Source of the DNA: Opitutaceae bacterium
GTDB taxonomy: Bacteria; Verrucomicrobiota; Verrucomicrobiia; Opitutales; Opitutaceae
Direction: 5' to 3'
Assembly (NCBI GenBank): GCA_031254955.1
Contig: JAIRTK010000019.1
Coordinates: forward strand, 1 to 26,197
Length of the DNA stretch: 26,197 nucleotides
Shown here: piece after piece, positions 1,034-24,925 of the stretch
Position numbering within the stretch: position 1 is the first letter of the stretch
Layout of the letters: each line of letters starts with the position of its first letter
Program-made: the position numbers and the translations under genes
Notes under the pieces: generated by a model
What the model was told of the DNA's origin: nothing
What the model saw: only the letters and a program-made list of their open reading frames with translations
The model's database searches: none

Positions 1034-4000
1034 CTAGCGATGGCATCTTCCGCGTCTCACGGCGCGGAGAATGCTGAGGATGGTGAGCGCGGTGAAGAGA
1101 AGGGGGGAGGGCAGTCCGCCTCCGCCGCCGCCACCATCGGAACTACCGCCGCCTGCGGGGTTGACTTTGAGAACAGCGGCGTTGCTGGTGGGCGAACCAG
1201 CGGGGTTGCTTACGCGGACGGTGTAGCTGCCTGCATCCGATTGTTGTGCGTTGGTGATCGTGTAACTTGCGCTGGTCGCACCGGAGATAGGGAATCCGTT
1301 TTTCATCCATTGGTAGCCTAGGCTTTCGCCGGTGGCGGTCACGGTGAAGGTCGCGCTGTCTCCGATGGTGATGGTTTTTGACGCCGGATGCGTTGTGATG
1401 ACAGGCGCGGCAAGGGGGCCGACGCTTACCTTGTAGCCTGCGGAGAAAATAATCTCGCCGGTGGGCGCGGTCAGCGCGATGGAGTAGGTTCCGGCGTGCA
1501 CGGCGGCGATGGCGTTGGTGGCTGTGTAAGTGGCGGAGGTCGCGTTGCCGATTACGAAGTTGTCGAGATACCACTGGCGCGCGGAGGGCGCAAAGCCGCT
1601 CGCATTGGCCGTGAGCGTGAAGCCGCCGGCCGTGGGAACGCTGGCCTCGGTATTGTTCGCTGTCGCGCCTGATCCGTTCACCGTCGCGCTGATGTTCGCG
1701 GTGCCGGTGGTGGCGGCAGGTGTGAGGGAATTTTTGCCGGCGGTGTTGCCTGCATTCGCGGTGATGTCGATCGCTGTGACGCTGCCGTCGGAATCCACGA
1801 CATGCGAATAGCCTGGAACAAAGACTTTGTCGCCGCCCGGCGCCGTCGTGCCTGCGGTGCCGAGCATAAGGTCGTCGAGCGAGCGAAGCAGTCCGGTGGA
1901 TTGTTTTGCGAGAGGATTGTTCACACCTTGGTAGATGTTGCGCACGGAGAGAATTTGCGCGCCTGCACCGGCCACGGTGGCGGTCGTGTTACCGGTTGCG
2001 GTGAGGTAATTGTTGAACATCAACACGCGGGCGTTGGTGACTGCGGGCATGTCGGCGCGCAGGCCGGTGTCCCAAAGATTGTGATCGAAAAGGATGCCGA
2101 TGACAGGGCCGGCGTTGGAAATGATCATGGCCGAGCCGCCGCCTTGGGGCGTGGCCGCGAATTTATTCCACGAGAAGGCGACATTGTCCGAGCCGCCGAT
2201 GATCGAGACCGGCGTGTCGGTGAAAGTGCAGTGGGAGATGTTCACATCGTTTGCGCCGTCGATGACGAAGGCGGTGCCGGTGAAGTTGAGTCCGAGGATA
2301 ACGGTGTTGCTCGCGCTTGCGGCGAGCGTCAGGCTCCCGGCGATGGTGGCGGTGGTATCCGAGCCGACGATGGTCTTGCCTTTGCTGACGGCGGCTCCGC
2401 CGACGAGCGAGAGGTCGATTGTGCCGGTCACGGTGACGGGGGTTGTGCCCGAGGTTTCGAGTTGTTCCTTGAGTTGCAGCGCCGCGAGGATCGTCGGATC
2501 GAGGTCGATCGTAAGCGTGGCGGCATTGCTGGCGACCGTATCTCTATCGTTGGTGGCGAGGCAGCGGTAGCGCATGCCGTTCATCGGCAGGGTGACGGCG
2601 GTGAGGGTGAGTGTCGTGCCGGTCGCTCCGGAAATGTCCATCCATGTGGCGCCGTTGGGCGAGGATTGCCACTGATACGTGGGAGAAGGCGCGCCGGTGG
2701 CCGCGACGCTGAAGGTGGCGTTTTCCCCAACGGTGCGGCTTATGTTTGCGGGTTGCGTGGTGAACGCCGGTGCAACGGCCAGCGTGAATGAGAGGCCGCT
2801 GACTGTTTCACGTCCGTCTGCACAGCGGATGGTGATCTTGCCGCCCGCAGCCAGAGTGTCAGGCACCGTCACGGTGATTTTGGTGGCGGAGGCCACGGTG
2901 AATTCCTGCGCTGGCACGCCGTCAAAAAGCACGCTGCTTACGCCGATAAAATTGTTCCCTGTGATCGTCACGCTTTGGCCGGGCACCATATAATCGGGAA
3001 ATGCGCTGATCGCCGGCGGCGGCACCGGGCTTATAGTGAGGGTGCCGTTCTCGAACGAATGGAACACCGCGACGCCGGCGTTCACCGTGAAATCGGTTGC
3101 GGCAAGGTTATGGGCGCCTGTGATGGCGATGATGCCTGTCCCGGCCGGAGTGGCGGCGGTGACGCCGGTCAGGTTGATCTCAATGGCGCCGATTCCGGTT
3201 TTTGTGACGGTCGTGAGCGTGAGCGGCGCGGAGGCCGGAGGAGAACTCGCAAACGCGATGTTGAGGCGGAGCGCTCCCTGGAGGCTGAGGGTGTTGTCGA
3301 TGCTCAGGGCGGTGTCGGGCGCGAGGATGATGTCGGTGGCGGCGGGGAGTGTCACGGGCACGGCGATTGTGTGGCGGCCTTGGTGCACGGCGAGCACGGG
3401 CGTTCCCGAGTCGGCTTTGAGCACAATCACGCCTGTGTCGTAGGTCAGGGTGCCGTCGGAGCTTTTAATCGAGTCGGCTGCGATGGTGTAGGCGTGCTCA
3501 CTGCGAAAGGTGAGCGCGGCTAATGTGCAGGACTGGGCGAGTTTCACGGTTGCAGGCGAGGTGATCGACGTGCCAAAAAGGGCGCTTTCGGCGCCCGTGT
3601 CGGGGCGGTTCCAATAAAACCAGTTGCGCGGGTCATACCAATCCGCGCTGTATTCGCCCTCCCAGTTGCGCAAGCCCGAGGGGGGCTGGATGATGTCTAG
3701 GGTGACGGAGGCGGTGAAATTCACTCCCGCGGGAAGCGTGTCAACGGAGCCGAGGTAATTGCCGTGCGCGTCGAATGACTTGATGATGCCGCCGGTGCTT
3801 TCGCGAACATACACCGTGCCGTCACCGGACTGCGCAAGCGCGTCGGGAGCGCTGGCGAAGGTGTGCCCTCTTGCGAAACGTCCCAGAGGGGCGTCTTGAT
3901 AGTGGGTGGTTTCGTAGCGGTTCACCGTGGCGCTTTCGCATTTTATGTAATGCGCGGGCGCAAGGGTGCGGAAATTTTCCAGCCGGTGAAAGGTGAGCAG

Positions 4001-5206
4001 ATTCGAGTCGTGGCCGCGCGGCGGGCTGTAACTGTCCGTCGCCGTCTTGAATGCGGTGCGCGAGGCGATGGCGAGGTCGTCGCCGTCAATAATGAAGGTG
4101 AAATACTGCCACCCGGTGTGATCGGCGTCGCGGGCGTGGATGAATATTTTCTCAATATCCCAGTGGATCAAATCCTTCGAGGAAGCGAGCGTGGCGGTGT
4201 TGCGGATCAGCTCGTGTTTCACCTGCTGACTGTTGGGGTCGATCACGCTCTTGTCGGCATGGAGGACCGTGTTGGTCAACGCATAGTATTTCTGGGAGAC
4301 GAAATCGTAGGTCGCGCCGAATTTTTTTTGCGCGCCGGCCAGCGGCACGAAGTCCTGCTCCGGCGCGAAGGTCATGGTGCCGTCCGCGGCGTTGATGTGG
4401 AACAGCGCGGTGTGGGGAACCGCGTTTGGGGATGTAAACTGGATTTTCGGCATGATGGTGACACCATGCTCCGGTGATGCGACGATCTGGGCCTCCGTCC
4501 ACGTCCCGCCGGCGCCACCGAAATGCAGGGCGACCGGCGCCGGCCATTTGGCTATCGCCGCCTCAGTTTTTTGCGCCGCCGGCGTACTTCGCGTCCACGA
4601 GGACTCCTTCATCAAATCCGAGGAAATCGACGCCGAATACGCCCGGTCCGTGCCGAGGGAAAGCCAGACGCGGTTATTGTGGATCATGGGTGTTTTTGTG
4701 GTGCCCGTCTCGCCGGAACGAAGGAGTCCGTTGTTGGCATCCGCCGGCGTGGTCCATGTGGCGCCGTTGTCGGTGGACTTCAGGATGCCGACATTAAAGG
4801 TGCCGTCTTTATTCAGCGAGTAGCTCCCGATGAGATAGAGCGCGTTATTATGCACAAAAAGAGACGCGCGCCGGAGGCCGGTGACCTCTTTCATAAGCGT
4901 CCATGTTTCGCCATTGTCGGTGGAGCGGAATATTTTTGAGACGGGCGAGGTGTCCGCCGTGGTGTCTCCTCCGAACAGGCTGTGGGTCATGACATAGTCG
5001 CCATTGGGCAGTTTCGCGATGGCGGGATCGGCAACATAAATCTCTTTCCCGCTTCGCTTCATTTTCACTCCCGTGCTGCCGACTTTGATGTAATAAATAT
5101 CGGGCGAGGGCGTGTGGCTCACCTGCACGCCCGCTCCAGTGGGCGCGGCTGCGAACAGACGCGAAACGCAAAGAATCAGGAGACAAACTGCCAGGGAGGG
5201 TTTCAT
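1034..5206 (-). CDS. Giant secreted protein: BNR/sialidase-like propeller, IPT/TIG, Ig-like and pectate-lyase-like domains, C-terminal sorting tail
   Basis: The protein has about 1390 residues. The ATG at 5206 is preferred over an in-frame ATG at 5251 because it begins a clean signal peptide (MKPSLAVCLLILCVSRLFAAA). The upstream ATG would overlap the antiporter gene by 17 bp. Residues 40-430 look like a sialidase-type propeller with two clear Asp-boxes, STDNGETW and STDNGATW. The FRIP arginine motif of true sialidases is not seen. A linker near residues 510-540 (W-x-x-x-x-x-N-W) leads to beta-strand repeats. An IPT/TIG domain follows near 730-805, an Ig-like domain near 807-898, a PL1-like right-handed helix near 900-1110, and two further Ig-like domains near 1170-1350. 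The end is Gly-rich, then PSPLLFTALTILSIL, then an Arg-rich tail. This resembles GlyGly/PEP-CTERM-type sorting signals, so surface attachment or processed release is likely. It probably binds or trims a polysaccharide, but the substrate is unknown. It lies 28 bp behind the antiporter gene. Confidence 0.82.
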   Translation of the reverse strand: MKPSLAVCLLILCVSRLFAAAPTGAGVQVSHTPSPDIYYIKVGSTGVKMKRSGKEIYVADPAIAKLPNGDYVMTHSLFGGDTTADTSPVSKIFRSTDNGETWTLMKEVTGLRRASLFVHNNALYLIGSYSLNKDGTFNVGILKSTDNGATWTTPADANNGLLRSGETGTTKTPMIHNNRVWLSLGTDRAYSASISSDLMKESSWTRSTPAAQKTEAAIAKWPAPVALHFGGAGGTWTEAQIVASPEHGVTIMPKIQFTSPNAVPHTALFHINAADGTMTFAPEQDFVPLAGAQKKFGATYDFVSQKYYALTNTVLHADKSVIDPNSQQVKHELIRNTATLASSKDLIHWDIEKIFIHARDADHTGWQYFTFIIDGDDLAIASRTAFKTATDSYSPPRGHDSNLLTFHRLENFRTLAPAHYIKCESATVNRYETTHYQDAPLGRFARGHTFASAPDALAQSGDGTVYVRESTGGIIKSFDAHGNYLGSVDTLPAGVNFTASVTLDIIQPPSGLRNWEGEYSADWYDPRNWFYWNRPDTGAESALFGTSITSPATVKLAQSCTLAALTFRSEHAYTIAADSIKSSDGTLTYDTGVIVLKADSGTPVLAVHQGRHTIAVPVTLPAATDIILAPDTALSIDNTLSLQGALRLNIAFASSPPASAPLTLTTVTKTGIGAIEINLTGVTAATPAGTGIIAITGAHNLAATDFTVNAGVAVFHSFENGTLTISPVPPPAISAFPDYMVPGQSVTITGNNFIGVSSVLFDGVPAQEFTVASATKITVTVPDTLAAGGKITIRCADGRETVSGLSFTLAVAPAFTTQPANISRTVGENATFSVAATGAPSPTYQWQSSPNGATWMDISGATGTTLTLTAVTLPMNGMRYRCLATNDRDTVASNAATLTIDLDPTILAALQLKEQLETSGTTPVTVTGTIDLSLVGGAAVSKGKTIVGSDTTATIAGSLTLAASASNTVILGLNFTGTAFVIDGANDVNISHCTFTDTPVSIIGGSDNVAFSWNKFAATPQGGGSAMIISNAGPVIGILFDHNLWDTGLRADMPAVTNARVLMFNNYLTATGNTTATVAGAGAQILSVRNIYQGVNNPLAKQSTGLLRSLDDLMLGTAGTTAPGGDKVFVPGYSHVVDSDGSVTAIDITANAGNTAGKNSLTPAATTGTANISATVNGSGATANNTEASVPTAGGFTLTANASGFAPSARQWYLDNFVIGNATSATYTATNAIAAVHAGTYSIALTAPTGEIIFSAGYKVSVGPLAAPVITTHPASKTITIGDSATFTVTATGESLGYQWMKNGFPISGATSASYTITNAQQSDAGSYTVRVSNPAGSPTSNAAVLKVNPAGGGSSDGGGGGGGLPSPLLFTALTILSILRAVRRGRCHR

Positions 5207-5234: not shown

Positions 5235-6584
5235 TCAGGCTTTTTCCTCATAGCCGTGCGGCTTGGCGCGCCAGATTAACAAAAAGATGCCCATGCCGAT
5301 GAGCGCGGTGACAACGATGGCGATGTGGATGCTGTTCCAGCCATAGCGCTCGGCGACGAAACCGAAGCCGATGCCTGATACCGCCGTGCTCCCGTAGCCA
5401 AAGATGCCCGTGAACCCAGCCGCGCTGGCGGCGACTTTTTTCGTGGCCTGATTCGAGACCGCGATCGTGATGAGCGTTTGCGCGCCGTAGATGAAAAAAC
5501 CGACGCCGCAGAGGGCGGCAAGCAGCATCCACGCCGGCGAGCCGGATGGGATTTGCCAGAAAACGAAGGCGAAGAGCGCCGCGCCCGCCATGCAGAAAAC
5601 ACAGGTGCGGTGCGCATAGCCCTTCAGGTAGCGGTCGGTCGCCCAGCCCGCCAGAACCATCCCGACGATGCCGGTGACTTCAAAAAGCGCCACCAGCCAG
5701 CCCGCATTCACCAGACTCACGCCCTTGGACTGCTGGAGCAGCATCGGGCCCCAGTCGAGGATCGACATGCGCACCACATACACGCAATATTTAGCCCCGC
5801 TGATGATCCAGATGACCGGGTTGAAAAAAACCTTTTCCCGCAGTAGCGCGCGGTATTCCTTCGATTTGTCCACGGCTTTTTTCAGCTTCACCGTGGTGCC
5901 TTCCAGCTCCGGCAGGCCGACCGAGGAAGGGGTGTCCCTCAAAAACACAAGCAGCACAACCGAGCCGGCCAGCGCGATGCCCGCCGGTATCCAGAAGCAC
6001 CAGCGCCACGCGCCGTAGCCCGTGCCTTCCGCGCCCATGTGTTTCATTATATAACCGCACAGGATGATAACCAGCCCCGCGCCGATGGAGTGCGAGGTGT
6101 TCCAAATGGCCATTTTTGTGGCCAGATTCCCTGGCGGCACCCAATGCGTGAGCAACCGCACGCAGGGCGGGTAGCCCGCGCCTTGCATCACGCCGCAGAC
6201 CAACCATGTGATGCCCATGAACAAGACCAGCGCATTCGAGAAATCCAGTCCTGATGGCGCGCCCGTGATCCATGAGGCGATGTCCACCCCGAAGCCCATC
6301 GAGAAATTGGCCGCGGCGCACAGCGCAAGCCCGATCGCCATGTGGAAACGGGCATTGAGCTTGTCGGCCAGAAAGCCATTGGCGAAGCGCGAAAAGCCGT
6401 AGATAATGCCGTTGAGCGTGAGGAAAATGCCGAGGCTCGTCTTGGAGATGCCGAGGTCGGTTTCGAGACCTGGCATGGCCATGCTGAAGTTTTTTCGGAC
6501 AAAATAATACAGTGCATATCCGCCTATGGTGAGCATGAGCGTTCGAGTCTGCCAGTGGCGGAAGGTGCGGGATGTGTGTGGCAT
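5235..6584 (-). CDS. MFS organophosphate:phosphate antiporter (GlpT/UhpT type)
   Basis: This 449-residue inner-membrane protein has about 12 hydrophobic segments, the usual OPA-family length. It carries the family signature G-Y-A-L-Y-Y-F-V-R-K-N-F near residues 22-33, and V-V-R-M-S-I-L-D-W-G-P near 270-280. R30 and R272 align with the two arginines that bind substrate phosphate in E. coli GlpT (R45 and R269). H165, in W-N-T-S-H-S-I-G-A-G, matches the conserved GlpT histidine. The family exchanges a phosphorylated organic compound, such as glycerol 3-phosphate or a hexose 6-phosphate, for inorganic phosphate. A phosphodiesterase-like gene in the same cluster favours glycerol 3-phosphate or a related product, but sequence alone cannot separate GlpT, UhpT and PgtP specificities. 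The gene ends 28 bp before the large surface protein and starts 147 bp after the third autotransporter. Confidence 0.9.
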   Translation of the reverse strand: MPHTSRTFRHWQTRTLMLTIGGYALYYFVRKNFSMAMPGLETDLGISKTSLGIFLTLNGIIYGFSRFANGFLADKLNARFHMAIGLALCAAANFSMGFGVDIASWITGAPSGLDFSNALVLFMGITWLVCGVMQGAGYPPCVRLLTHWVPPGNLATKMAIWNTSHSIGAGLVIILCGYIMKHMGAEGTGYGAWRWCFWIPAGIALAGSVVLLVFLRDTPSSVGLPELEGTTVKLKKAVDKSKEYRALLREKVFFNPVIWIISGAKYCVYVVRMSILDWGPMLLQQSKGVSLVNAGWLVALFEVTGIVGMVLAGWATDRYLKGYAHRTCVFCMAGAALFAFVFWQIPSGSPAWMLLAALCGVGFFIYGAQTLITIAVSNQATKKVAASAAGFTGIFGYGSTAVSGIGFGFVAERYGWNSIHIAIVVTALIGMGIFLLIWRAKPHGYEEKA

Positions 6585-6632: not shown

Positions 6633-6649
6633 AGTGAATATCCGGAGGG

Positions 6650-6675
6650 TTTTGAACCGCGGATGCGCACAGATG
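6650..6675. repeat. Dispersed intergenic repeat, TTTTGAACCGCGGATG type
   Basis: The sequence TTTTGAACCGCGGATGCGCA sits between the third autotransporter and the antiporter. A closely related copy, TTTTGAACCGCGAATGGGCG, lies at 22902-22921 upstream of the receptor gene. Both copies run in the same direction on the plus strand and continue with a purine-rich ATAAA-like or AGATG tail. Both are strictly intergenic. Confidence 0.6.
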
Positions 6676-6731: not shown

Positions 6732-9700
6732 TTAGAACTGGCAGCGAACGCCCAGGCTGATGTCCCAGGGTTTTTTGTAATTGTCGCCGCAGGCGGCCTC
6801 GTAGTCGAAGTAGAGATGGAATTTTTCGAGGGGACGCCAGATCGCGCCCACGCCCGCCTCGCCGCGGCTGCCGTCCAGGTTGGGACGCCAGGTTTCGGAG
6901 CCGATGCGCACGTCGCCGCCCATGCTGCTCTCACGGACATAGGCAACGCGCCCGGCAAGCTCGATCACGCCGGCCCCGGCGGTGCGCCACGCGCGACCGG
7001 CGCGCACTGCGCCGCGCAGACGGGTGACGGTGGCATTCGCATTGCGCACGCGCATGGGCATGTCGCCCTTGGTGAGGTAATCGGACCGGTCAAACCGTGC
7101 ATAGGACAACAGGGCCGCTGGCTCGGCAAACCAGCCGGATTCGACGCCGAGGGTGAAACGTTTGCCGGCCTCAAGGCTCACGCCATAAGTCGTGTCGTTG
7201 TAGTCGGCGGTATTGTGATTGCCGCTTTGGTCGGAAACATCGAAGTTGTTTTTGTGACGCGCCGCCGTGACGGTCGCGTTCGCAAACCAGCCACGGCTGT
7301 TGAACCAGAGGGCATAGAGGCCGCCGCCGAGCAGGTCGCTGCCTCCGCTGGCCTTGGTTCCGGCGAGGCTGGCGTCGAGAGTGAAATCCTGGCTGCCACT
7401 GCCGTAACCGAAGAAGAGTCCGAGGCTGAATTTGTCCTCGGAGAGCATCCATGTTTTGTCGGCGCCGGCCTCGACTCCCCAGAGTGTGAGGCTCGAGGCG
7501 GTCATGCCTTCGCTGGCGTCGAGATCGGATTGGCTGGCGCGGGCGCGCGCCCAGAAATCCCAGCGTTTGCCGGCGTGCCTTGTTTCATCATTCTCCAGGG
7601 CGGCGGAGCGCAGCTCGCCGAGGCGTTTGCCGAGGTTGTCCTGCTGGCCGAACCACGCGAGGCTTTGCGCGCCGGGCACGCCGCGTATGGGCGCGTGGGC
7701 GGTGGAGAAGCCGTTGTTGACGATGTGGACCTGACTGTCCCTTTGTTCGAACACGTAATTGAACGGGCCGTAATCAAAACCGCCTGTGAAGACCGGGCCG
7801 CTTGGGAGGATGAAATCGCCCGTGTAGTCCGCGCCGTCCAATCCGCTGATAGTGACAAGGGTGAGCACCGGTTCGTCGCCCTTGGGCAGCGCGGGACCGG
7901 CGGCTGGATGGATGAGGAGACGAAATGTTCCAGTGGCGTCGCCGTTGACGATGAGCTGGTCGCTTTGGCCGGAGCTGAGGTCGATCTTCATGCGGAAGTC
8001 GCCGGAGCCGTCGAGAGAGTCGAGCGTGAGGGTGCGGTAACCGTCGTAGGCGGGCGTGATGATCTCGCCGGGGGCGCCTCCAATGGCGAGGTTGGAGGGG
8101 CCGCCGAAGTCGATTTCGCCGCCGTTGATGAAATGCACCGGGCCAAGGCGCGCGGCGGCCCCGCCGTTGAGGCGGATGACGCCGTCGTAAAGGGTGACAT
8201 TACCGGTGAAGGAATTTTGCGCGCTGAGGATGAGCGTGCCGCCGCCGTCCTTGGTGAGCGAGACGCCGTCCCAGCCGGAGGTGACGCCCGCGCGGTCGCC
8301 GAGGGGAACGTCAACGTCGAAACTCTGCCCGGCGGGGATGGCGAAGGTGCCGTGGGCGCTGCCCGGGAGTCCGTTCCAAGCGAGGCTGTAACCGGCGTGG
8401 TATTCGGTGCCGTTTTCGAGAATGTAGCCGCCGGCAACGAGATAGTCGGGGGGAATCACGCCCGGCGCGGTGATGGCATTGAAGCTGCCGCTGATGCCAC
8501 CTTCGGCGCGGAGGATGAGGATGCTGTCGCTGACGAGTTCGCTGGCCTTGGTGCCAGAGGGGATGAGGCCGTTGAAGCCGTTGACGATGAGCGCGCCGTC
8601 GAGGGATGCGGAGCCGTCGGTTGACACATAAGGGGTGTCGTGTCCGGGGGCCAAGTCGATGGCTAGGGTGCTGATGGCGTTCTGCGTATAATTGCCGCCG
8701 AGAGTAACGGAGCCAGTCGGCGTGATATTGAGGAGCCCCGTGCCGCTGACGCCGACCGAAAGCGAGCCGCTGCTCTGCCAGAGACCGGCGACGATGGCGG
8801 TGCCATTGCCCCCTTCGTATTGGCCGATGTAGCCGAAGGCGCTTGTGATGGTGCCGCTTTGTTCGATTTCGATGTAGCCGGTGCCGTAGCGTCCGACGGA
8901 AACGCCGACGGCGTTTTCCCAGAGGCCGGCGACAAAGGCCGTGCCGCTGCTGGCGGCGGAGTTGTAGGCGAGTAGGCCCTGATTGCTTGCGACGATGCCG
9001 CCTTGCTCGATTCTGAGAAAGCCCGCGCCGTTGTAGCCGACCAGCAAGTTGCCGTTGTTCTTCCAGAAGCCTGCAACGATGGCCGTGCCCGTGGTATTCG
9101 CACCATACCCGACATTGCCGGTGTTGTTGCTGACGGTGCCGGTCTGGATGATGTCGAGAACACCTCCGCCGCCGTTGGCATTGCGACCAATATAAAAATT
9201 GTCGGTATGTTGCCACAAGCCTTCGACGATGGCGGTGCCGCTGCTGCCGGCATTGAACCCAATGTAACCATACTGGCTGCTGACGGTGCCGCTTTCCGCG
9301 ATGTGAAGCACGCCCGTGCCGCCGTAGCCAACGTAAAGATAGTTGTTGGTGTTCAACAGACCGGCAACAAAAACGGTGCCGGTGGCGGTGGTGTTGCTTG
9401 CGATGGCAACCTCGCTGGATGCGCCGGTGGCGAGGATGGTGCCGGTTTGCTCGATTTTGAGGTAGCCAGAGCCGCCGAATCCGACGGCAAGGGAGCCGCT
9501 GTTTTGCCAGAGACCTTCCACGATGGCCGTGCCGTTGGAATTGGCGTCGTAGGCGATATAAGCGTTGGCGTTCGAAACGGTGCCGGTTTGTTCGATTTTG
9601 AGCCAGCCGCTGCTGTTGGAGTAGCGCGAAAGAATAAAATTGCCGTCGTTTTGCCAGAGGCCGGCAACGATGGCGGTGCCGGAGCCATATTGTCCGACCC

Positions 9701-13533: not shown

Positions 13534-14358
13534 TTAGATTGCAGCCGGCTCCTTGCCGCCACCGGGCGGGCATTCCTTGAGATATAACGCAGGCTCGTTG
13601 ACCAGGGGGAAGTCAACGCCGGCGGCAAAAAGTTCGCGGCAGTGCTTCGGAGATTTGACGCCGAAATAATTCACCTTCACGCCCGCCGCCTTCAACTGCC
13701 TCATTTCCTCCGGCGAACAGAGTTTTGTGAGTTGGATAAACTGGCATTTTTGCCGAATGGTCTCCTGCACATAGCGCGAGGCGTCGCCGCCTTGCCTGTC
13801 CATGTTGCAAATCATGATTTGCGGGTATGCCTTGCGGACGGCATTTGCGCGGCTTTGCGTGCAAGACATGAATGCCTGGTGCTCCCGCTTTTTTTCAACA
13901 ATGATGCGCGCAACCCTGACCGCGGCTTTTTCATCAGCGTAGGTGTGGACGTTGATCCAAAGGTCGCGAGGCAGGGAATCCAGGGCTTCCTCAAGCGTTG
14001 GAATCTTTGCCCCGGCGAATTTCGCGTCTTTTTTGATTCCTGCGTCCAGCTTTCTGATTTGGGCAAATGTCAAATCGGATATCCGCCCTTTGCCGTTGGT
14101 CGTGCGGTTCACCGTCGTGTCATGAATGATGACCAAGTGCCCGTCTTTTGTGCTGCGGACGTCGAATTCGACTTGTTGCACGCCCAGCCTGACCGCTTCA
14201 CGAAATGCGGGGATGGTGTTTTCCGGATGTGTGTCATTTGCGCCGCGATGCGCGCTGATCCCGCGCTGGGGAAGGGCGGGGGCGGCGGATGCGGAGAGCG
14301 CGGCCAGCGCCAGCGCAGGACAGAGAATGCGAAGCAATAGGGAATGGAGTGTTTTCAT
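13534..14358 (-). CDS. Secreted glycerophosphodiester phosphodiesterase-like protein (GDPD/UgpQ family)
   Basis: This 274-residue protein has an N-terminal signal peptide (LLLRILCPALALAALSASA, cleavage near residue 26), so it is periplasmic or exported. The GDPD fold begins with H37-R38-G39, then E46-N-T, E64-F-D66-V and H79-D80. These are the usual two catalytic histidines and the first metal ligands of enzymes that split glycerophosphodiesters into glycerol 3-phosphate and an alcohol. The later family motif (E-x-K, as in N-x-E-I-K), which supplies another metal-binding glutamate, reads W-I-N-V-H138-T-Y here. His therefore replaces Glu, and Tyr replaces Lys. Activity or metal use may differ, or this may be a recognised subfamily. 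The gene sits between two autotransporter genes on the same strand, with gaps of 123 and 172 bp. Together with the GlpT-type antiporter it suggests use of a phosphodiester substrate. Confidence 0.85.
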   Translation of the reverse strand: MKTLHSLLLRILCPALALAALSASAAPALPQRGISAHRGANDTHPENTIPAFREAVRLGVQQVEFDVRSTKDGHLVIIHDTTVNRTTNGKGRISDLTFAQIRKLDAGIKKDAKFAGAKIPTLEEALDSLPRDLWINVHTYADEKAAVRVARIIVEKKREHQAFMSCTQSRANAVRKAYPQIMICNMDRQGGDASRYVQETIRQKCQFIQLTKLCSPEEMRQLKAAGVKVNYFGVKSPKHCRELFAAGVDFPLVNEPALYLKECPPGGGKEPAAI

Positions 14359-17322: not shown

Positions 17323-19245
17323 CTACCACATGCAGTTGACCGAGAGGGAGGCAGTCATGCGGTCGTGATGCGCGCCGCGTTCGTAGCCGAGCGACAGGCC
17401 TGCATGGACGCGGCGGGTGAGAGCGACACCGAGGGACGCGCCGAGCGAGACGGTGTCCTCGTAATAATCGCCTCGTTCCAGCGTGAAACCGCGCTCCGAA
17501 TAATCGCGAAAGGCCGCGGCAAGCGTTGTCCGTGGCTCGCTCACATGGCGTTTGAGGCCGAGGCTGACGCCGGCCAGCGCGGCGCGCTTGAAGAGCGTGA
17601 GGCGGCGCGCCGCATCGACCGCGAGGTTAACATGCGCGAGCGAGTCGCTGAAATCCTCCACGACCATTTGGCTCGCGCCGATGGGAGCGCGCTCCTTGTA
17701 GTCACTGATATCCATGCTCGTGTAACGCACCGCGACGCGCGGGCGCAGGAATCCATCCTTCCAAGGGCGGAGCACCGCACCGACTTCGAGGCCGCCTCCG
17801 CTGAAATGGTTGCTCCAATGGGCGATTGTGGAGCCGTTAGCCTCGCGGCGCAGCGACTCGGAGTCGGCATTGCCGGAAAAGGCGTCGGCGGTGATGTAGA
17901 AATGCTTGAAACGCGGGGTCACGCTCACGCCAAAATAACGCTGCTTGGACAGGAGCGAGGCCGCGCCGGCGGTGTCGAGATTGCTTTCCGTGATTCCGCC
18001 GTAGAGTCCGAGGTTGACCCGCTGGCGATACGCGCTGTCGAGGCCGAGCACGAGGCCGCTGAGCCGCCCGTTGTGGCCGGGGCGGTTGTCGCCGCCGGTT
18101 TCATAATCAACCGAGCTGAAAAGGCCGCGCAGCCAGGCGTTGTTGTTCCATTTGCGCGGACGACGCTGGGCGGGTGCGTCGGCGGCGGGCAGAAGAAAAA
18201 GCTCGTTGAGACGGCCCGACACGGTGTCGATGATGGTGTCGATTGCGGCGGTGGTCATGGCGATGTCGTGCATGGGATTCGCGCCTTGGTTGATGACAAG
18301 GTAATCGCGCCGCTGGCGTCCGCTGCTGCCGACGACGCTGGTGGCGTCGAGACTGTAGCCTGCGGGCGCGGCGGCGAGGATGTCGGGGCTGGCGGAGCCG
18401 GGGGCGAGCGCGGCGTATTCGAGGCGTATGAGGCCGGCACCGCCAAAGGTGAAGGTCGCGTCCGGGTCGAGCGCGAGCGTGCCGGTGACGGTGAGGTTTG
18501 CGCCGGGGTTGAGCATGAGCGTGCTGGTGGCGTCAACGGCGAGAATGCGCGCCACGATGGCGTAGTTGGTCTGGGCGAGCAGGCCGGAGACGCCGGGCGT
18601 GATGCCCTCGCGGCCAAGCACGAGAGTCGAGTTGTCGGCGATGGAGACGGCGACGTTGGCGCCGCCCAGCCCGCTGGAGAGCGTGCCGCTGGCCAGCGCG
18701 TAGAGGCGCGAGCGCGTGACGGCGAGTTCGCTGAAATCGCTGTTGGCCGAGGCCAACGCGCCAATGACAAAGCCGTGGCGGTAATTGAGCGTCATGTCGC
18801 TGTCCGCGATCTCGACGCGCCCGCCGCCGGTGATGGCTTGCGGAAAATTCATGCCGTCGCGGATGCCGCGCATCACGAATGTGGCTCCGGAGTTGACTAC
18901 GAGATTTCCCGTGCCAAGCGCGCCGACATGCGTGACAACGAGTGTGCCGGAGGAGACGGCATTGGGGCCGAGAAACCAGTTGCGCTGGCCGGTGATGGAG
19001 AGTGTGCCGTCGCCGGTTTTGATGAAAGCGCCGCCGGTGGCGATTTCCCGGTAGTCGCTGGTGCCCGTGATGCGGCCCGAGATGGTGGTGTCGGCGTCAA
19101 CGACAAACGTGTCCGTCCGGTCGGCGAGGTAAATGTCGCCGGTGTAATCGCCGCCGGTGAAGACGACTGTGTCGGCGCGGAGCGTATGAAACGCACAGAG
19201 AACGGACGACAGAAGACAAAGGACAAAAGTGCGGAGTGTTCTCAT
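17323..19245 (-). CDS. Small autotransporter with PATR-type passenger and C-terminal beta-barrel
   Basis: The product has 640 residues when started at ATG 19245, which opens a signal peptide (MRTLRTFVLCLLSSVLC, cleavage near residue 24). An upstream in-frame ATG at 19287 would put 14 extra residues in front and spoil it. Residues 25-340 are passenger with autotransporter-associated beta-strand repeats (I-K-T-G-D-G-T-L-S-I-T-G, then S-G-T-L-V-V, then N-L-V-V-N-S-G-A-T-F). Residues 360-640 are the outer-membrane barrel, ending in N-C-M-W. The barrel differs clearly from those of the other two autotransporters. The gene starts 81 bp behind the TonB-dependent receptor, so co-transcription is plausible. 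No enzyme motif is seen. Confidence 0.82.
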   Translation of the reverse strand: MRTLRTFVLCLLSSVLCAFHTLRADTVVFTGGDYTGDIYLADRTDTFVVDADTTISGRITGTSDYREIATGGAFIKTGDGTLSITGQRNWFLGPNAVSSGTLVVTHVGALGTGNLVVNSGATFVMRGIRDGMNFPQAITGGGRVEIADSDMTLNYRHGFVIGALASANSDFSELAVTRSRLYALASGTLSSGLGGANVAVSIADNSTLVLGREGITPGVSGLLAQTNYAIVARILAVDATSTLMLNPGANLTVTGTLALDPDATFTFGGAGLIRLEYAALAPGSASPDILAAAPAGYSLDATSVVGSSGRQRRDYLVINQGANPMHDIAMTTAAIDTIIDTVSGRLNELFLLPAADAPAQRRPRKWNNNAWLRGLFSSVDYETGGDNRPGHNGRLSGLVLGLDSAYRQRVNLGLYGGITESNLDTAGAASLLSKQRYFGVSVTPRFKHFYITADAFSGNADSESLRREANGSTIAHWSNHFSGGGLEVGAVLRPWKDGFLRPRVAVRYTSMDISDYKERAPIGASQMVVEDFSDSLAHVNLAVDAARRLTLFKRAALAGVSLGLKRHVSEPRTTLAAAFRDYSERGFTLERGDYYEDTVSLGASLGVALTRRVHAGLSLGYERGAHHDRMTASLSVNCMW

Positions 19246-19326
19246 AAAAGATGTGGAGAGGGGACGGGAGATCGGTGGCATTATCATTCTTAATTTTGTA
19301 TTTTACATTAGCGCGCACGGCGCGTG

Positions 19327-22300
19327 TCAGAACGCTCCTTTCAGGCTCACGTTCCAGTAGGAGCCGCGCAGGGTGTAGGCGGCGAGGCGGTCGGGGACGT
19401 TGGAATAGATGATCGCGGGCGAATTGGTGATGTTGCGCACGCTGAAGGAAAGTTCGCAGCGCCGGGTGAGCTTGAAGCCGCCGCTCAGATCCATGATGAA
19501 GCGGCTTTTCAGGTAGCGGTGGTCGTTGAGGAAATAATTTCTGAGGCCCGACGGGCGGGTGACCGAGTAGAGGGTGGTGTCATTCCATGTGCCGCGAAGC
19601 TGCAGGTGCACGCGTCCGACGCGGTAGCGGATGCCGCCGTTGGCCGACTTGCGCACCTGGCCGATTTTTTCCTCGTCGGTCTGCGAGCCTTGAATGTCCG
19701 ACCAGGTGACGGAGCTGAAGACGCTCAAGCCCTTGAGGTAGCCTGGCAGAAAGGTGAGCTGCTGGTTGTATTCAAGGGTCATGCCATAGACGGAGAGGCG
19801 GCTGCGGGAATTGATGGTGGTGTAAAAGGCGGTGTCGCTTGCATTATCGACCTCGGTCGTATCACCGGTATCGGGGGTGCCCCCGGTGACGGAATCGTCC
19901 GACTCGTCGTCAATGATATCGCCCAGCGGATAGCCGACTATGCGCTCGGCCTCGGCGCGGCTGATTTCGATATGGCTGATTTGTTTGTTTTTGATATCCA
20001 TGCGGTAGGCCTGAAGGCTGAGGGTGCCGGCTGGTTCGAGGCGCCAGTTCAGGCCGGCGAAAATCTTGGTCATGTATTCGGGTTTGAGGGTGGAGTTGGG
20101 GATGGTGGCGGTGCTGAGTTCCTCGTCGTAGCTGACGGTGCCGGAGAGATTGGGATAATCGGGGCGCATGATGGACTGGCTGGCGGAGAGCTGGGCCTGA
20201 AGATTGCGGGTGATGTCGTATTTGAGTCCTCCGGAGAAAAAGCCGTTGCCGTAGCTGTTGCGACGGTTGACGCGCTCGCCGTAGTGGTATTGGTAGCGGA
20301 CGCCCTCCTCGGTCGTGGCCTGTCCTTTATCATTGACCGGATAGCCGGCGGCGGTGAGTTCGGCGCTGGTGCGGCGCGGGACGCTAAGGGTCTCGACCTC
20401 GGTCTTTTCAAAACGCGCGCCAAGGTTGAAGCGAAGGCGGTTGATACGGGTGTTCATCTCAAAGTAGGCGGCGCTGATGTCCTCGACGAGATGCCGCCTG
20501 TTGGTGAACTCGCGTCGCAGGTTGGCGACGGTGCCGGTGAACCAGTTGGGGTGTTCCCTGAATATGTCGTAAAGCGCGTAAGTGTCGTCGATGCGCCAGC
20601 CTTGCTCGGAAATGTTGCCTCCCTTGCCGCCCAAGGGGAAATCGAAGACATAGTTTTGGGTGTGGGGAATGGGGGCTTCCTGCGGGCGTCCGGTCGGGCC
20701 GAGGTAATTGTAGCGGGTGTCCTTGCGCCAGTAGTCGTAGGTGTTGCGGCGGAAGTGGCCGCCGGTCTGGAATGTGACAGGCACGCCAAAGACGGGGACG
20801 GCATAGGAAAGGTCCAGGCCACCGACATACTGCTCGGTCTCCGCGCGTGTCGGATAGGAGCGGATGCCGAGGTTGGAATAGTTGCGTTTGCTCCAGTTTT
20901 CGGGATTTCCCCACGGGTCGCCGCTGGTCTGGGTGAGCGTCCACGTGGGCGAGTCGCTGGAGGGGCGGTCGGCGACCCAGCCGATGTTGCTCACGTAGGA
21001 ATTGGTGGCGTAGAAGAAGCCCTTTTCTCCGTCGCGGTAACGTTTGAAGGTGTTGGCGTAGCCACCGTGGATCTCGGCGGAAAAGCTGTCGCGCTTGTAG
21101 GTGAGGCGCGGCGTGGCGAAACGGGTGAGCGTCGAGTGCTGGCGGTGGACGTAGCTGTTGAAGAGACGGGTCTCGGTGGATCCCGCATTATTGACGACCC
21201 AGTGGATGAGGGTGGAGTTTATCCGGTCAACGCTCGCAGTGGGCGCATAGCGACGGTCCACGCTGTCGGCGGTGTTGTTGTAGGCGCGAAGCGCGGTGGT
21301 GAGCGAGTAGGACTCGCGCGCCTCATGATAGAAGCCCCCGCGCATCGAAACGGTGAGAAAGGGGCTGATCTTGTAGCCGAGATTGAGGTTGGCGCCATAC
21401 CGGTTCAAGAGCTGCACTAGCGGGCGCCAGGAGAGATTGACGATCACCGGCTCATGGTCGAGGTAGTCATACTGGGGGTTGGCAGCGAGGTTGGGGTTGA
21501 GGTAGGAGTAGCCAATCGCATGTTGCTGCACCAGATTGTAGCTGCCATTGTAGCTGAGATTAAAATCGACGGCGAGGCGACGCCTGAAAAACACGCCGCC
21601 GTAGTTGATTTGCCAACTGGGAAAAACGAGACGGTGCTTGCGGTCGTCGGGCAGGTAAGAGCCGCCCCAGTTGGTGGCGCTGCTGTGGCCGTTCAAGCCG
21701 AACTGGTAGCGAATCTGCCTGCCGCGCCGGCTGAACGGGTCCTTGGAGCGGAAGTTGATGCGCCCGGCGGCGGCCCCGGCGTCCATGCTTGCCGTCAGCG
21801 TCTGCACAAACTCAATGGTCTCGATGCCTGTGGAGGTGATATCGGTAAGGTCAACCGCGCGCCCGCTCGTCGAGATGGCGACGCCGTCGAGCGCGGCGGT
21901 GGTGTATTTGCTGTCAAGCCCGCCGATGCGCACGCCGGTCGCGTCGGCATCGCCGTATTCGAGGGTGATTCCCGGCATGTATTTGAGGACTTCGCCGATG
22001 GCGCCCATGGTGACGTCGCCGAAATTGTCGGAGGCAATGAGGGTGACTGCGTTCGGAGCGGCACGCTGGTCCATGATGGCCTTGGCCTGGCCTTCGCGAT
22101 CCTCGGTGACGACGAAACGATCGAGCGTGACAACCGGCCCCGTGGCGTCGCTGGCCGAGGGGGCGATGATGAGCGGATGGAGGTCGAAGTTGAGAACATT
22201 GGGCGCGCCCGCAGTGGCGGTGATCGTGCTGGTGCGCTGCTGGACGCCCGAGTAGCTGGCGATGAGTTCGACCGTGCCGGCGGGCGCTTCGATGGCGTAG

Positions 22301-22785
22301 GAGCCGTCCTCCCCGGTATAGACGTAGCGCTCGGTGCCGGCGACGCGCACCTCGGCGTTATGCAGGTAGGCGTCGGCGGCGACGTTGAGCACGCGGCCGG
22401 TTATGGTGACGGTTTGCGCGAGTGTCTTTTTTTTTGCGCCGGGTGTGGTGTTTGCATGGCGCACGGTGAGGGTTCCGCCCTTCGCGGTCTGCTCGACGAC
22501 GAGGCCTGTGTCCGCGAGCATGATTTCGAGCGCCTCGCGCGCGGTGTAGTCCCCCTTGACGGGTTTGGATCGGATGTCGCGGATGGTATTCGTCGGCACG
22601 AGGATATTCACGCCGGTTTGCTGAAAAAGTGTCTTGATGGTGTTTTCCACAAAGCCGGCGGGCACATCAATGGCACGCTTTTCCGATGCGGGATCGGAGG
22701 CGGAAAGGCACGCGATGAGTGTGAAAAACGATAATAATGCGGCAACGTGTTTGAGGAAAGCGCGGGAAAGGCGACGAGAGGTCAT
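19327..22785 (-). CDS. TonB-dependent receptor/transducer with STN domain
   Basis: This 1152-residue outer-membrane protein starts with a signal peptide (residues 1-29). Its hydrophobic part ends L-I-A-C, which also looks like a lipobox. Residues 37-110 form an STN domain (V-E-N-T-I-K-T-L-F-Q-Q-T-G-V-N-I-L-V-P), the signalling module that contacts FecR-type anti-sigma factors. Residues 125-205 are a carboxypeptidase-regulatory-like beta-sandwich (T-I-T-G-R-V-L-N). The plug follows near 215-355 (M-G-A-I-G-E-V-L-K-Y-M-P-G-I-T-L). The rest is the beta-barrel, ending in Phe. Such receptors import siderophores, cobalamin, oligosaccharides or other large solutes using TonB energy. The STN domain and the neighbouring sigma/FecR pair imply substrate-induced transcription. 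A run of nine A residues (22427-22435, complement) lies between the STN and sandwich domains. The substrate is not readable from the sequence. Confidence 0.93.
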   Translation of the reverse strand: MTSRRLSRAFLKHVAALLSFFTLIACLSASDPASEKRAIDVPAGFVENTIKTLFQQTGVNILVPTNTIRDIRSKPVKGDYTAREALEIMLADTGLVVEQTAKGGTLTVRHANTTPGAKKKTLAQTVTITGRVLNVAADAYLHNAEVRVAGTERYVYTGEDGSYAIEAPAGTVELIASYSGVQQRTSTITATAGAPNVLNFDLHPLIIAPSASDATGPVVTLDRFVVTEDREGQAKAIMDQRAAPNAVTLIASDNFGDVTMGAIGEVLKYMPGITLEYGDADATGVRIGGLDSKYTTAALDGVAISTSGRAVDLTDITSTGIETIEFVQTLTASMDAGAAAGRINFRSKDPFSRRGRQIRYQFGLNGHSSATNWGGSYLPDDRKHRLVFPSWQINYGGVFFRRRLAVDFNLSYNGSYNLVQQHAIGYSYLNPNLAANPQYDYLDHEPVIVNLSWRPLVQLLNRYGANLNLGYKISPFLTVSMRGGFYHEARESYSLTTALRAYNNTADSVDRRYAPTASVDRINSTLIHWVVNNAGSTETRLFNSYVHRQHSTLTRFATPRLTYKRDSFSAEIHGGYANTFKRYRDGEKGFFYATNSYVSNIGWVADRPSSDSPTWTLTQTSGDPWGNPENWSKRNYSNLGIRSYPTRAETEQYVGGLDLSYAVPVFGVPVTFQTGGHFRRNTYDYWRKDTRYNYLGPTGRPQEAPIPHTQNYVFDFPLGGKGGNISEQGWRIDDTYALYDIFREHPNWFTGTVANLRREFTNRRHLVEDISAAYFEMNTRINRLRFNLGARFEKTEVETLSVPRRTSAELTAAGYPVNDKGQATTEEGVRYQYHYGERVNRRNSYGNGFFSGGLKYDITRNLQAQLSASQSIMRPDYPNLSGTVSYDEELSTATIPNSTLKPEYMTKIFAGLNWRLEPAGTLSLQAYRMDIKNKQISHIEISRAEAERIVGYPLGDIIDDESDDSVTGGTPDTGDTTEVDNASDTAFYTTINSRSRLSVYGMTLEYNQQLTFLPGYLKGLSVFSSVTWSDIQGSQTDEEKIGQVRKSANGGIRYRVGRVHLQLRGTWNDTTLYSVTRPSGLRNYFLNDHRYLKSRFIMDLSGGFKLTRRCELSFSVRNITNSPAIIYSNVPDRLAAYTLRGSYWNVSLKGAF
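22427..22435 (-). repeat. Nine-base homopolymer inside the TonB receptor gene
   Basis: On the coding strand nine consecutive A residues encode Ala-Lys-Lys-Lys at the junction between the STN and beta-sandwich domains. A run this long is notable in GC-rich coding DNA and is a possible site of replication or transcriptional slippage. The reading frame is intact in this sequence. Confidence 0.85.
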
Positions 22786-22802
22786 ACATAAATTAAAACG
22801 CC

Positions 22803-22849: not shown

Positions 22850-22884
22850 AAAAATCTCTCATCAAATCAATCCGGGAAAATCGT

Positions 22885-23105: not shown

Positions 23106-24341
23106 TCAGTCTTCCGTCCGCTGTTGTGCTTCGTCCTCTGGCTCAATTTCCTCCTTGCGAAGGATGATTACGTCTCCCCGGCGCTCGCTTGCGATGCCCA
23201 TGCTCACATGGAGCACATCCACAAAAGCTGCGATGTCGCTGGCGGGAAAATAACCGCTTACCGGCTCCGCCTTCATGTCGGACAGCGATTCGTCCATCAC
23301 GAGACGCGTGTTTGCGCTGCCATCGGGCAACTGTGAATGGCTGTTGATCAACGCCACCGCCTCGGCCAGTGGTGTCGCGGAAAACTCCAGCCGCGAAACG
23401 CGCCAGGCCAGGCGCTCGTTGATTTCATCGGGGGTCACTGCCATCAAGACAGGAGCGTCTGCCGCTGCCGCGGTTTCCACCACGAGGCGCTCGCGCATGC
23501 CAAGCGTCGCCACGAGGACAGGCCCGGCGGTTGAGTCGATTGCGGGCTTGGGCGTGCTCGTTTTCTGCGCGTCCACATCCGCTGCCGTGATTGTTTCCTG
23601 CATTGCCGTGTCCGGCTGGGATGCAGGTTTTTCCACGGCGACACACCCTTCGGTGACCAGGACTTCCGTCTGCTCATTGCCAAGGTCCACGGAGAACGCT
23701 GTGCCGACCGCCCTCACTTCAATGTCTCCGGCCGCAACCACAAACGGACGTGACAATTCTTTCGCGACTTGGAAATACGCCTCGCCGCTCACCAGAACGA
23801 CCCGGCGGACGGTGTCATCGTAGCGCATGTCAATGACGGCGCCCTGCCTGATTTCCACCATCGAACCATCCGGCAGTTCACGTTGTTCGGGGCTTATGAC
23901 AGTCACGATGCTTTGTCTGGGGTGCGCGGGCACGGTCTCTTCGGAGCTTGCGGTCACAACAGATGCCGGCAGCGCATCAAACGGCGGCAATTCCATGATT
24001 TCGCGCCGCCGCTGCCACAGGGAGGCAAAGGCGATTACCACGACGGCGCAAGTCGCCGCGGCTGCGATTTGCACCCGCCGCGTGCGGCGTCGGCGCGCCT
24101 GGCGGCGGAGCGTGCGCGCGCGCAGTTCGCGCACAAGCGCGCTCTTTTCATCAGCGAGCAACGGGCGGTCAAGAGCCGACCATGCGCGCGAGCAGTATTC
24201 AAACGCGACCTCGTGCCGTGTGTCCGCTGAGCGCCATTGCACAAACTCCGCTACCTCCGCCGCCGACAGGCCGGCGTCATGCCGGGCGACCCAGCAGGCG
24301 GCGGCCTCGAAAATGGCTTTCTGGTCGGAGTCTTTGTTCAT
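23106..24341 (-). CDS. FecR-type anti-sigma factor / sigma regulator
   Basis: The product has 411 residues. Residues 8-55 match the N-terminal cytoplasmic module of FecR proteins (A-C-W-V-A-R-H-D-A-G-L-S, then F-x-x-W), which holds the sigma factor. An Arg-rich stretch at 70-89 precedes a single membrane helix near 90-109. The periplasmic FecR domain runs from about 143 to 240 (L-P-D-G-S-M-V-E-I-R-Q-G-A, then V-S-G-E-A-Y-F-Q-V, then V-G-T-A-F-S-V). A Thr/Ala-rich linker follows. The C-terminal module near 310-400 (L-E-F-S-A-T-P-L-A-E-A-V) resembles the DUF4974/STN-like part that meets the receptor. The start ATG overlaps the sigma-factor stop as ATGA, so the two are translationally coupled. 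The protein should relay receptor occupancy to the sigma factor. Confidence 0.9.
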   Translation of the reverse strand: MNKDSDQKAIFEAAACWVARHDAGLSAAEVAEFVQWRSADTRHEVAFEYCSRAWSALDRPLLADEKSALVRELRARTLRRQARRRRTRRVQIAAAATCAVVVIAFASLWQRRREIMELPPFDALPASVVTASSEETVPAHPRQSIVTVISPEQRELPDGSMVEIRQGAVIDMRYDDTVRRVVLVSGEAYFQVAKELSRPFVVAAGDIEVRAVGTAFSVDLGNEQTEVLVTEGCVAVEKPASQPDTAMQETITAADVDAQKTSTPKPAIDSTAGPVLVATLGMRERLVVETAAAADAPVLMAVTPDEINERLAWRVSRLEFSATPLAEAVALINSHSQLPDGSANTRLVMDESLSDMKAEPVSGYFPASDIAAFVDVLHVSMGIASERRGDVIILRKEEIEPEDEAQQRTED

Positions 24342-24925
24342 GTTTTGTTTTGCTTTGTTTCAATCGCGCCGCGCTTGGCAAAAAATGTCACCAGCCTCAA
24401 GATGCCACGACAGACCTGTTGCCCGACGGCGGCCTCGGTGGTGGAGAGGAGCGTGGCGACCTCGCGCTGCGGCATTCCCTGGAGTTTGCGAAGGAGGATG
24501 ATTTCACGGCATTGCGGCGGGAGCGAGTCGATGGCATCGGCCAGCAACGCAATTTCATCACTGACGGACGCGGCTTCGACGGGATCCTTGCCATCATCTA
24601 TGACGTCCAGCACGGCCAAATCTGACACGGCAACTATCGGGGATTTTTTCTGGCGTCGGATCGAGTCGATTGCCAGATGCCTGGCCACCGTGAACAAAAA
24701 CGCCTTGACTGACCCGATGGGCCTGGCTGCGTTTGCGAGCCACGTGCGCAAGTAGGATTCCTGCACGATATCCTCGACATCGACGGAGGGAAAGGATCTG
24801 CGGATGTAGGATTCGAGATGAGTGTTATGGGCATGCACCTCGTCTTCGAACCAGCGCGTTTTTTCCATCGGAATGGTCGCGCAGGGCGGCGTGCAGAGAG
24901 GAGACTCATGTGAAATATTGCTCAT
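24338..24925 (-). CDS. ECF (FecI-like) RNA polymerase sigma factor
   Basis: This sigma factor has 195 residues when started at ATG 24925. ATG 24868 (176 residues) is also possible, and the frame is open upstream to 25045, which would add an unlikely leader. Region 2 lies near residues 30-100, with D-V-E-D-I-V-Q-E-S-Y-L-R-T-W (core-polymerase and -10 contact) and A-F-L-F-T-V-A-R-H-L-A-I-D. Region 4 lies near 120-180, with L-P-P-Q-C-R-E-I-I-L-L-R-K-L-Q-G-M-P-Q-R-E-V-A, a helix-turn-helix that reads -35 DNA. No region 3 is present, as is normal for ECF factors. It is coupled to the FecR gene by a 4-bp overlap. By analogy to FecI it should transcribe the receptor gene, and possibly the downstream cluster, when the receptor is occupied. 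Confidence 0.92.
   Translation of the reverse strand: MSNISHESPLCTPPCATIPMEKTRWFEDEVHAHNTHLESYIRRSFPSVDVEDIVQESYLRTWLANAARPIGSVKAFLFTVARHLAIDSIRRQKKSPIVAVSDLAVLDVIDDGKDPVEAASVSDEIALLADAIDSLPPQCREIILLRKLQGMPQREVATLLSTTEAAVGQQVCRGILRLVTFFAKRGAIETKQNKT

Follow-up and report, generated by a model that had tools for sequence, protein, structure and literature searches.

A nine-gene cluster of an Opitutaceae bacterium as a candidate acquisition locus for glycerophosphodiesters

What use could a bacterium make of a gene cluster in which a sigma factor, a FecR-type protein and a TonB-dependent receptor are joined to three autotransporters, a GDPD-family phosphodiesterase, a GlpT-like organophosphate carrier and a large surface protein? 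The question is raised by the window, the 26,197-nucleotide stretch of DNA that we analysed, which is an entire contig (C45) of a metagenome-assembled genome (69% complete, 574 contigs) of an Opitutaceae bacterium related to Ereboglobus; G, C, L and g numbers are our handles for genomes, contigs, loci and genera. The cluster runs from position 24925 to 1034 on the minus strand, in the order sigma, FecR, receptor, AT1, AT2, GDPD, AT3 (AT1 to AT3 being the autotransporters), carrier and immunoglobulin-like (Ig)/propeller protein. Because the window is the whole contig, the left border of the cluster is the contig end. The locus is real and partly conserved, and it is probably a nutrient system and not a chance grouping, as several genera keep parts of it together. 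We give a probability of about 0.57 to the reading that it would be a surface-to-cytoplasm acquisition locus for glycerophosphodiesters, such as deacylated phospholipid head groups, or teichoic-acid-like or glycerophospho-sugar fragments.

The original prediction, made from this DNA alone, placed all nine genes on one strand with most gaps at 28-172 bp, and this is borne out. The sigma and FecR genes overlap by 4 bp and the FecR-receptor gap is 320 bp, the two exceptions; the following gaps measure 39 bp (receptor-AT1), 57 bp (AT1-AT2), 123 bp (AT2-GDPD), 172 bp (GDPD-AT3), 147 bp (AT3-carrier) and 28 bp (carrier-Ig protein), assuming that AT3 starts at 13361 and the Ig protein at 5206. The predicted gene names agree with Pfam and NCBIfam, the weak points being the STN score, AT2 and the carrier.

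Neighbourhoods of the carrier and the receptor

The evidence that carries this reading comes from related genomes. In a survey of 150 genomes of the family (E ≤ 1e-80, up to 11 candidates per genome scored), the carrier subfamily has 36 matches in 19 genomes. The neighbourhoods of 30 of them were examined in stretches of 3-50 kb, six loci being left out (G102:C110, G046 at 5.09 Mb and at 5.14 Mb, G080:C21, G006:C25 and G102:C328). A GDPD, a glycerol-1-phosphate dehydrogenase-like (G1PDH-like) or a GlpD-like gene is present in 27 of the 30 loci (G1PDH-like in 21, GDPD in 14, GlpD-like in 13), the remaining three being G002:C6, G051 at 1.37 Mb and G000:C445, a 3-kb contig. A SorC-type regulator occurs in 17 and a HAD phosphatase in 16, and a common operon order is SorC, GDPD, G1PDH, carrier, HAD, GlpD (L136, L137, L146 and L149). 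Neighbouring genes were named by running Pfam and NCBIfam on example proteins, and Pfam confirms two of the weak GDPD matches of the carrier operons (L136 and L146). These carrier neighbours are the reason why the substrate, predicted as a phosphodiester-containing polymer or head group, is narrowed here to glycerophosphodiesters. The position of a G1PDH-like gene (L081:12936-14444, for example) beside an uptake carrier, often together with a GlpD-like gene, suggests a catabolic bacterial sn-glycerol-1-phosphate (G1P) dehydrogenase. The window genome itself carries such genes on other contigs: C515 holds SorC, carrier, HAD and GlpD-like genes, and C462 holds SorC, a carrier and a partial G1PDH-like gene. 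Thus, the cytoplasmic steps need not be encoded in the window.

The receptor subfamily (E ≤ 1e-150, four candidates per genome scored) has 20 matches in 14 of the 150 genomes and in 7 of 49 genera. Conservation of the neighbourhood had been proposed as a check, and its outcome is mostly favourable: the receptor is present in 10 of the 30 carrier loci, spread over six genera (the window, G002, G051, G046, G006, G082, G104, G007, G115 and G043). Seen from the receptor side, a carrier lies near eight of the 20 matches (the window, G002, G046, G104, G082, G115, G043:C52 and G006), and two further pairs came to light when the search started from the carrier or the GDPD (G051 at 2.41 Mb, and G007, where the receptor is in two pieces). 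The two genes are about 3-8 kb apart in the relatives and 13 kb apart in the window; as the genomes measure 3.6-8 Mb, such proximity would rarely arise by chance, and because the loci share ancestry we attach no p-value. A SorC-G1PDH-carrier-HAD operon lies opposite the receptor in genera g7, g8, g41 and g44, with GlpD seen as well in all but g44.

In g8, g41 and g44, the receptor is followed by a gene for a conserved propeller-like protein that belongs to no known family. Such a gene lies directly 3' of the receptor in L081 (7319-8512), L082, L084, L085 and L147, the last four being 71-91% identical to that of L081; neither the L081 protein in Pfam and NCBIfam nor the L082 protein in Pfam gave a family match.

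Gene positions suggest that AT1 is a partner of this receptor subfamily. There are 11 AT1 homologues at E ≤ 1e-50, in six genomes, and ten of them lie within 20 kb of a receptor of the subfamily on the same contig, nine as the adjacent reading frame. The exceptions are G051 at 437 kb, with the receptor 17 kb away, and G077:C625, where none was seen. Ten weaker matches (down to 1e-30) mostly resemble other autotransporters, so the pairing does not merely reflect autotransporter abundance; the weak match on G077:C708, cut by the contig end, also adjoins a receptor. AT2-like genes lie 3' of the receptor in L079, L080, L078, L130, L133 and L075, and both AT2- and AT3-like genes do so in G046, G002, G051 (two loci), G080:C32 and G080:C38. 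AT1 itself is present in four of the 30 carrier loci, all in genera g1 and g3.

The related loci show how these genes are combined. In G046, a genome of the same genus, about 37 kb of one strand of one contig (L128, L080 and L129) encode SorC, a carrier (70% identical), HAD, a GlpD-like protein, a 3-keto-disaccharide hydrolase, AT1, the receptor, an AT2-like protein, a giant autotransporter, GH2, GDPD, a CBM-metallophosphoesterase, an S1/P1 nuclease and another giant autotransporter. The next 45 kb contain Exo_endo_phos genes, a metallophosphoesterase, GDPDs, a carrier-G1PDH-GpsA-GDPD group, GlpT and an Ig-type protein that is 62-64% identical to parts of that of the window. In G002 and G051, SorC stands opposite GDPD, a carrier (71%), an S1/P1 nuclease, GlpT, AT1, the receptor, an AT2-like gene, a giant autotransporter, a metallophosphoesterase (matched in two pieces in G051) and an autotransporter. 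G080:C32 has SorC opposite GDPD, AT1, the receptor, an AT2-like gene, a giant autotransporter, a metallophosphoesterase and an autotransporter, and no carrier was seen on it. The G046 region from 1.737 to 1.819 Mb (L128, L080, L129, L156, L157, L145 and L158) forms some 80 kb dense with GDPD, Exo_endo_phos, metallophosphoesterase and S1/P1 nuclease genes, carriers, glycerol-phosphate dehydrogenase-like genes and autotransporters.

The nine proteins and the route they would form

Table 1. Genes of the cluster, with positions in the window
Feature	Position	Strand	Basis and remarks
ECF (extracytoplasmic function) sigma factor, FecI-like	24338..24925	-	Sigma70_r2, Sigma70 r4_2, TIGR02937; frame open from 25045, ATG at 24925 or 24868
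FecR-type anti-sigma factor	23106..24341	-	PF04773 53 bits, DUF4880 25 bits; overlaps sigma
TonB-dependent receptor	19327..22785	-	weak STN, CarbopepD_reg_2, plug, barrel
Autotransporter AT1	17323..19287	-	PF03797, weak PATR
Autotransporter AT2	14482..17265	-	TIGR01414 72.8 bits
GDPD-family phosphodiesterase	13534..14358	-	PF03009 126 bits; signal-like N-terminus, His clade
Giant autotransporter AT3	6732..13361	-	T5SS/PEP-CTERM repeats and barrel; TIGR04393 21 stretches, TIGR01414 184.6 bits
GlpT-like organophosphate carrier (OPA family)	5235..6584	-	GlpT 1pw4 E=1.2e-61, residues 7-437
Surface protein	1034..5206	-	sialidase/GH93-like propeller, TIG, Ig domains, C-terminal tail; families, homologues, fold model

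The sigma factor, 89% identical over 188 residues to its counterpart in the Ereboglobus sp. locus L053, stands side by side with FecR and the STN receptor in the FecI/FecR/FecA architecture, with a weak STN call (25.3 bits versus the Pfam cut-off of 28.4); receptor residues 25-137 are also matched by the FecA N-terminus. Relatives of the receptor are found on a contig of Ereboglobus sp. isolate Reactor_metabat.82 (89%) and in Opitutaceae bacterium Nm470_bin120 (62%). The full N-terminal signalling region, with an alignment from residue 1, is present in three of the 20 receptor matches (the window, G080:C38 and G051 at 455 kb), each of them immediately preceded by sigma and FecR genes. The alignments of the other 17 begin no earlier than residue 106 (a truncated one at 220), some of them on contigs too short to show the upstream side. 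In G043:C46, sigma and FecR lie at least 7 kb from the receptor, beside a piece resembling the STN region of another receptor. FecR is not routine, with 21 matches in six genomes. Each of the three sigma/FecR loci has a phosphoesterase-family gene, of a different fold each time: GDPD in the window, Exo_endo_phos in G080 and a metallophosphoesterase in G051, all with a signal-like start as judged by eye.

The window carrier has the Arg, His and Arg residues of the phosphate site of GlpT, as expected of the OPA family. In an alignment with 22 other carriers, which include one plain GlpT, the two Arg never change, and the His is retained by 21, L152 having Thr instead. At the level of the family, this would point to glycerol phosphate as the cargo. 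The carrier also aligns with SLC37A4, less well than with GlpT; it passes the Pfam MFS cut-off and falls below those of all ten NCBIfam models listed, including GlpT, UhpT and PgtP, and "GlpT-like" is therefore the limit of its naming.

The GDPD-family enzyme was aligned with 39 sequences of 46-78% identity, chosen among 120 matches listed of 2223, and the catalytic His-Arg, the second His and the acidic ligands (H37, R38, E64, D66 and H79) are invariant in the 40. Its model (predicted local distance difference test, pLDDT, 93) has GDPD 2pz0 as its best PDB match, and also matches GlpQ 5t9b. This clade includes matches named from Planctomycetes and Verrucomicrobiae.

Of the surface proteins, AT2 has no Pfam match at 0.05, its call as an autotransporter coming from TIGR01414. 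For residues 16-450 of the Ig protein there are 87 relatives, among them proteins annotated as exo-alpha-sialidase or neuraminidase (Ruficoccus, Sedimentisphaera), and its N-terminal domain is modelled as a sialidase/GH93-type propeller (pLDDT 85, best TM-score about 0.5, 8-14% identity), followed by TIG and Ig domains; a PDB sequence search with that domain gave nothing below E 0.15. Since the likeness comes only from a predicted fold at 8-14% identity, we assign no substrate. The tail of the protein (window 1034-1150), Gly-rich, hydrophobic and Arg-rich/basic, looks like a surface-sorting signal. Near the same contig end, window 159-551 is a low-complexity tract with an Arg-Glu repeat in one frame and no Pfam match, and is probably not a gene.

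Taken together, the proteins would form the following route. AT1-AT3 and the Ig/propeller protein would bind the substrate at the cell surface, where the propeller may trim it. By its architecture, the TonB receptor would bring the substrate across the outer membrane and, when loaded, would signal through its STN domain to FecR, freeing sigma and raising expression of the locus. The GDPD-family enzyme, whose metal site is altered, would hydrolyse the diester in the periplasm. The GlpT-like carrier would then import glycerol phosphate in exchange for phosphate. Its oxidation to dihydroxyacetone phosphate would fall to GlpD-like or G1P dehydrogenase-like enzymes, whose genes lie elsewhere in this genome, on contigs other than C45.

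Points against this reading and other explanations

Several observations weigh against the glycerophosphodiester route, and some of them concern the chemistry of the GDPD. The third calcium ligand of GlpQ is Glu152 (PMC7086022, in the part of that paper available), and this position is His138 in all 40 aligned members of the window clade. Plain GlpQ activity is therefore not to be assumed, and we call the enzyme GDPD-family and not GlpQ; the predicted role as a standard glycerophosphodiesterase is unsupported. With His138, the enzyme may use another metal or release another leaving group. Among 12 GDPDs from the related loci, two share the His (L047 and L049), the others having E, D or K in a column made uncertain by gaps. 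His-clade GDPDs are rare in the family, with three matches besides the window at 47-50% identity in the 150 genomes, and G046 and G077, of the same genus, have no match at 1e-20. The G051 GDPD is matched in two pieces and looks interrupted.

Regulation is another weak part. GDPD and carrier are seen in only one of the three sigma/FecR loci, that of the window: the G080:C38 contig ends beyond AT3, too early to show a carrier, and G051 at 455 kb has neither in the 42 kb examined. What ties sigma/FecR to the carrier is thus a shared strand and short gaps, as seen in a single contig, and the predicted control of carrier and GDPD by sigma/FecR finds no support, also in view of the SorC-type regulators of the carrier loci. 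Pho-box-like sites, sought with a consensus in a weak test, number 18 versus 12.7 expected, and 9 of 100 shuffles reach 18, so that they do not exceed chance. A promoter scan of 6000-25500 gave five sites versus 4.2 expected, which carries little information.

The conservation is also incomplete. Receptor, carrier, GDPD and AT1 occur together in only four of the 30 carrier loci, in two genera, and 12 of the 20 receptor matches have no carrier nearby, six of them uninformative on contigs shorter than 10 kb. AT1-receptor pairs without a phosphate gene in view were found in L039, L040 and L077. The G1PDH-like and GlpD-like proteins of L081 (179 versus 413 bits and 341 versus 360 bits) lie below their NCBIfam cut-offs, as do the carriers, and their names are therefore family-level, with the L081 proteins and the carriers all passing Pfam. 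The closest sister cluster, L053, whose main segments are 85-89% identical in nucleotides, keeps sigma to AT3 with no GDPD between AT2 and AT3, its contig ending before the carrier position, and has an Exo_endo_phos gene (L053:8424-9659) between FecR and receptor, where the window has its 320-bp gap. The same locus encodes a propeller-like protein (L053:22611-23303) that is 46% identical over 136 residues to one beside a His-clade GDPD in L049 and has no detectable kinship to the L081 protein encoded next to the receptor (E 0.14).

Alternatively, AT1, receptor, AT2 and AT3 would form a generic core for glycan utilisation with interchangeable cargo, the substrate being a polysaccharide of which the phosphodiesterase and the carrier handle only phosphoglycerol decorations. 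This core recurs with GH2, GH127, CBM domains and 3-keto-disaccharide hydrolase; the cargo of G051 at 455 kb, which includes GH127 and a GH2-like gene and points to a glycan, is a further argument against the glycerophosphodiester route, and the Ig protein has its sialidase/GH93-like propeller. We nevertheless hold this explanation to be unlikely, although it survives best among the alternatives, since the carrier keeps company with glycerol-phosphate dehydrogenase-like or GDPD genes almost throughout, the loci repeatedly include S1/P1, Exo_endo_phos and metallophosphoesterase genes as well as several GDPD genes, and the window has no certain glycosidase.

The arrangement in L053 and the SorC-type regulators could also mean that two independent units adjoin in the window, a surface module of sigma, FecR, receptor, AT1 and AT2, and a GDPD-AT3-carrier-Ig unit under its own control. 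This we consider improbable, given that a single strand is used throughout with gaps of 28-172 bp after the receptor, and that G046, G002 and G051 each encode carrier, AT1 and receptor in the same direction. Terminator-like sites in 6000-25500, from a weak consensus scan, are 16 versus 22.2 expected, which says little, and the sole one on the minus strand lies inside AT2, none being in the gaps. Finally, the genes could belong to an iron or siderophore system of the classical FecI/FecR/FecA type whose neighbours are unrelated to it. This would account for the sigma, FecR and STN receptor architecture and for weak FecA and CirA similarity, but is very improbable, as the receptor subfamily travels with an organophosphate carrier and the window proteins include no iron-uptake family beyond those weak receptor matches (the related loci were not searched for iron genes).

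The glycerophosphodiester route thus remains our preferred reading: the predicted passage of a phosphodiester from surface to cytoplasm is supported by the neighbourhoods in relatives, in narrowed form, and its regulation and the GDPD chemistry are the parts left without support. As to the origin of the cluster, recent horizontal transfer from Ereboglobus was considered and rejected: rpoB of the window genome is 87.6-89.4% identical in nucleotides to that of G080, and the main segments of the cluster, at 84.8-88.9%, show no excess over it. G046 is nearer by rpoB (91.8%), yet its receptor is only 42% identical to that of the window, so that loss or old transfer of the cluster may have occurred.

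Known systems and implications

No description of this gene composition was found in literature titles and abstract openings, in a search covering subscription journals little. The FecI/FecR/FecA type of cell-surface signalling consists of an ECF sigma factor gene overlapping FecR, followed by an STN receptor. The window has the same arrangement, with the difference that its cargo consists of surface proteins, a phosphodiesterase and an organophosphate carrier and not of iron uptake. The glpTQ-type pair of E. coli combines periplasmic GlpQ with the carrier GlpT, and the window likewise has a GDPD-family enzyme and a GlpT-like carrier; unlike in glpTQ, a giant autotransporter gene lies between them, and an outer-membrane receptor and sigma/FecR are linked to them. 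As far as the available part of the GlpQ paper goes, the equivalents of His43, Arg44, His85, Glu70 and Asp72 of B. subtilis GlpQ are kept in the window enzyme, in contrast to the Glu152 equivalent (PMC7086022).

The closest known kind of locus is represented by the PUS (PusCD) loci of Flavobacterium, in which, according to the available part of the paper, SusCD pairs are found with phosphatases and phosphodiesterases, and for one of which, PUSI, a role in scavenging nucleic acids and the head groups of lipids is proposed (PMC8115612). Both kinds of locus cluster a TonB-type importer with a phosphodiesterase and an inner-membrane transporter for organic phosphorus. They differ in that PUS loci have SusD, whereas none of the nine window proteins has a Pfam match to SusD and the dedicated autotransporter AT1 stands beside the receptor. 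Furthermore, the window and its relatives have FecI/FecR- or SorC-type regulators, which do not imply a phosphate response, and the relatives have glycerol-phosphate dehydrogenase-like genes, suggesting use of carbon as well as phosphorus. A 2025 paper, in the part available, describes bacterial uptake of G1P and sn-glycerol-3-phosphate by GpxB (PhnT family) and UgpB (CUT1 family), which resembles the present case in the use of glycerol phosphates of either stereochemistry and differs in that the carrier here is of the MFS type and, in relatives, adjoins a G1P dehydrogenase-like gene (PMC12718374).

A bolder version of our reading, speculative and on balance doubtful, would have AT1 serve the TonB receptor as SusD does in Bacteroidota, in an outer-membrane machine for feeding on polymers of glycerol phosphate or on lipid head groups. 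Both stereochemistries would be used, GlpD taking the sn-3 form and a catabolic G1P dehydrogenase the sn-1 form, and G1P from archaea or teichoic acids may be among the substrates; the cluster of the window would then be the signal-controlled version with a His-ligand GDPD of altered chemistry.

If the glycerophosphodiester reading is true, Verrucomicrobiota would have a defined path leading from molecules that bear phosphodiesters into central metabolism, and one of the many autotransporters of the phylum would have a role. The reading would also provide a possible entry point for the catabolism of sn-glycerol-1-phosphate.

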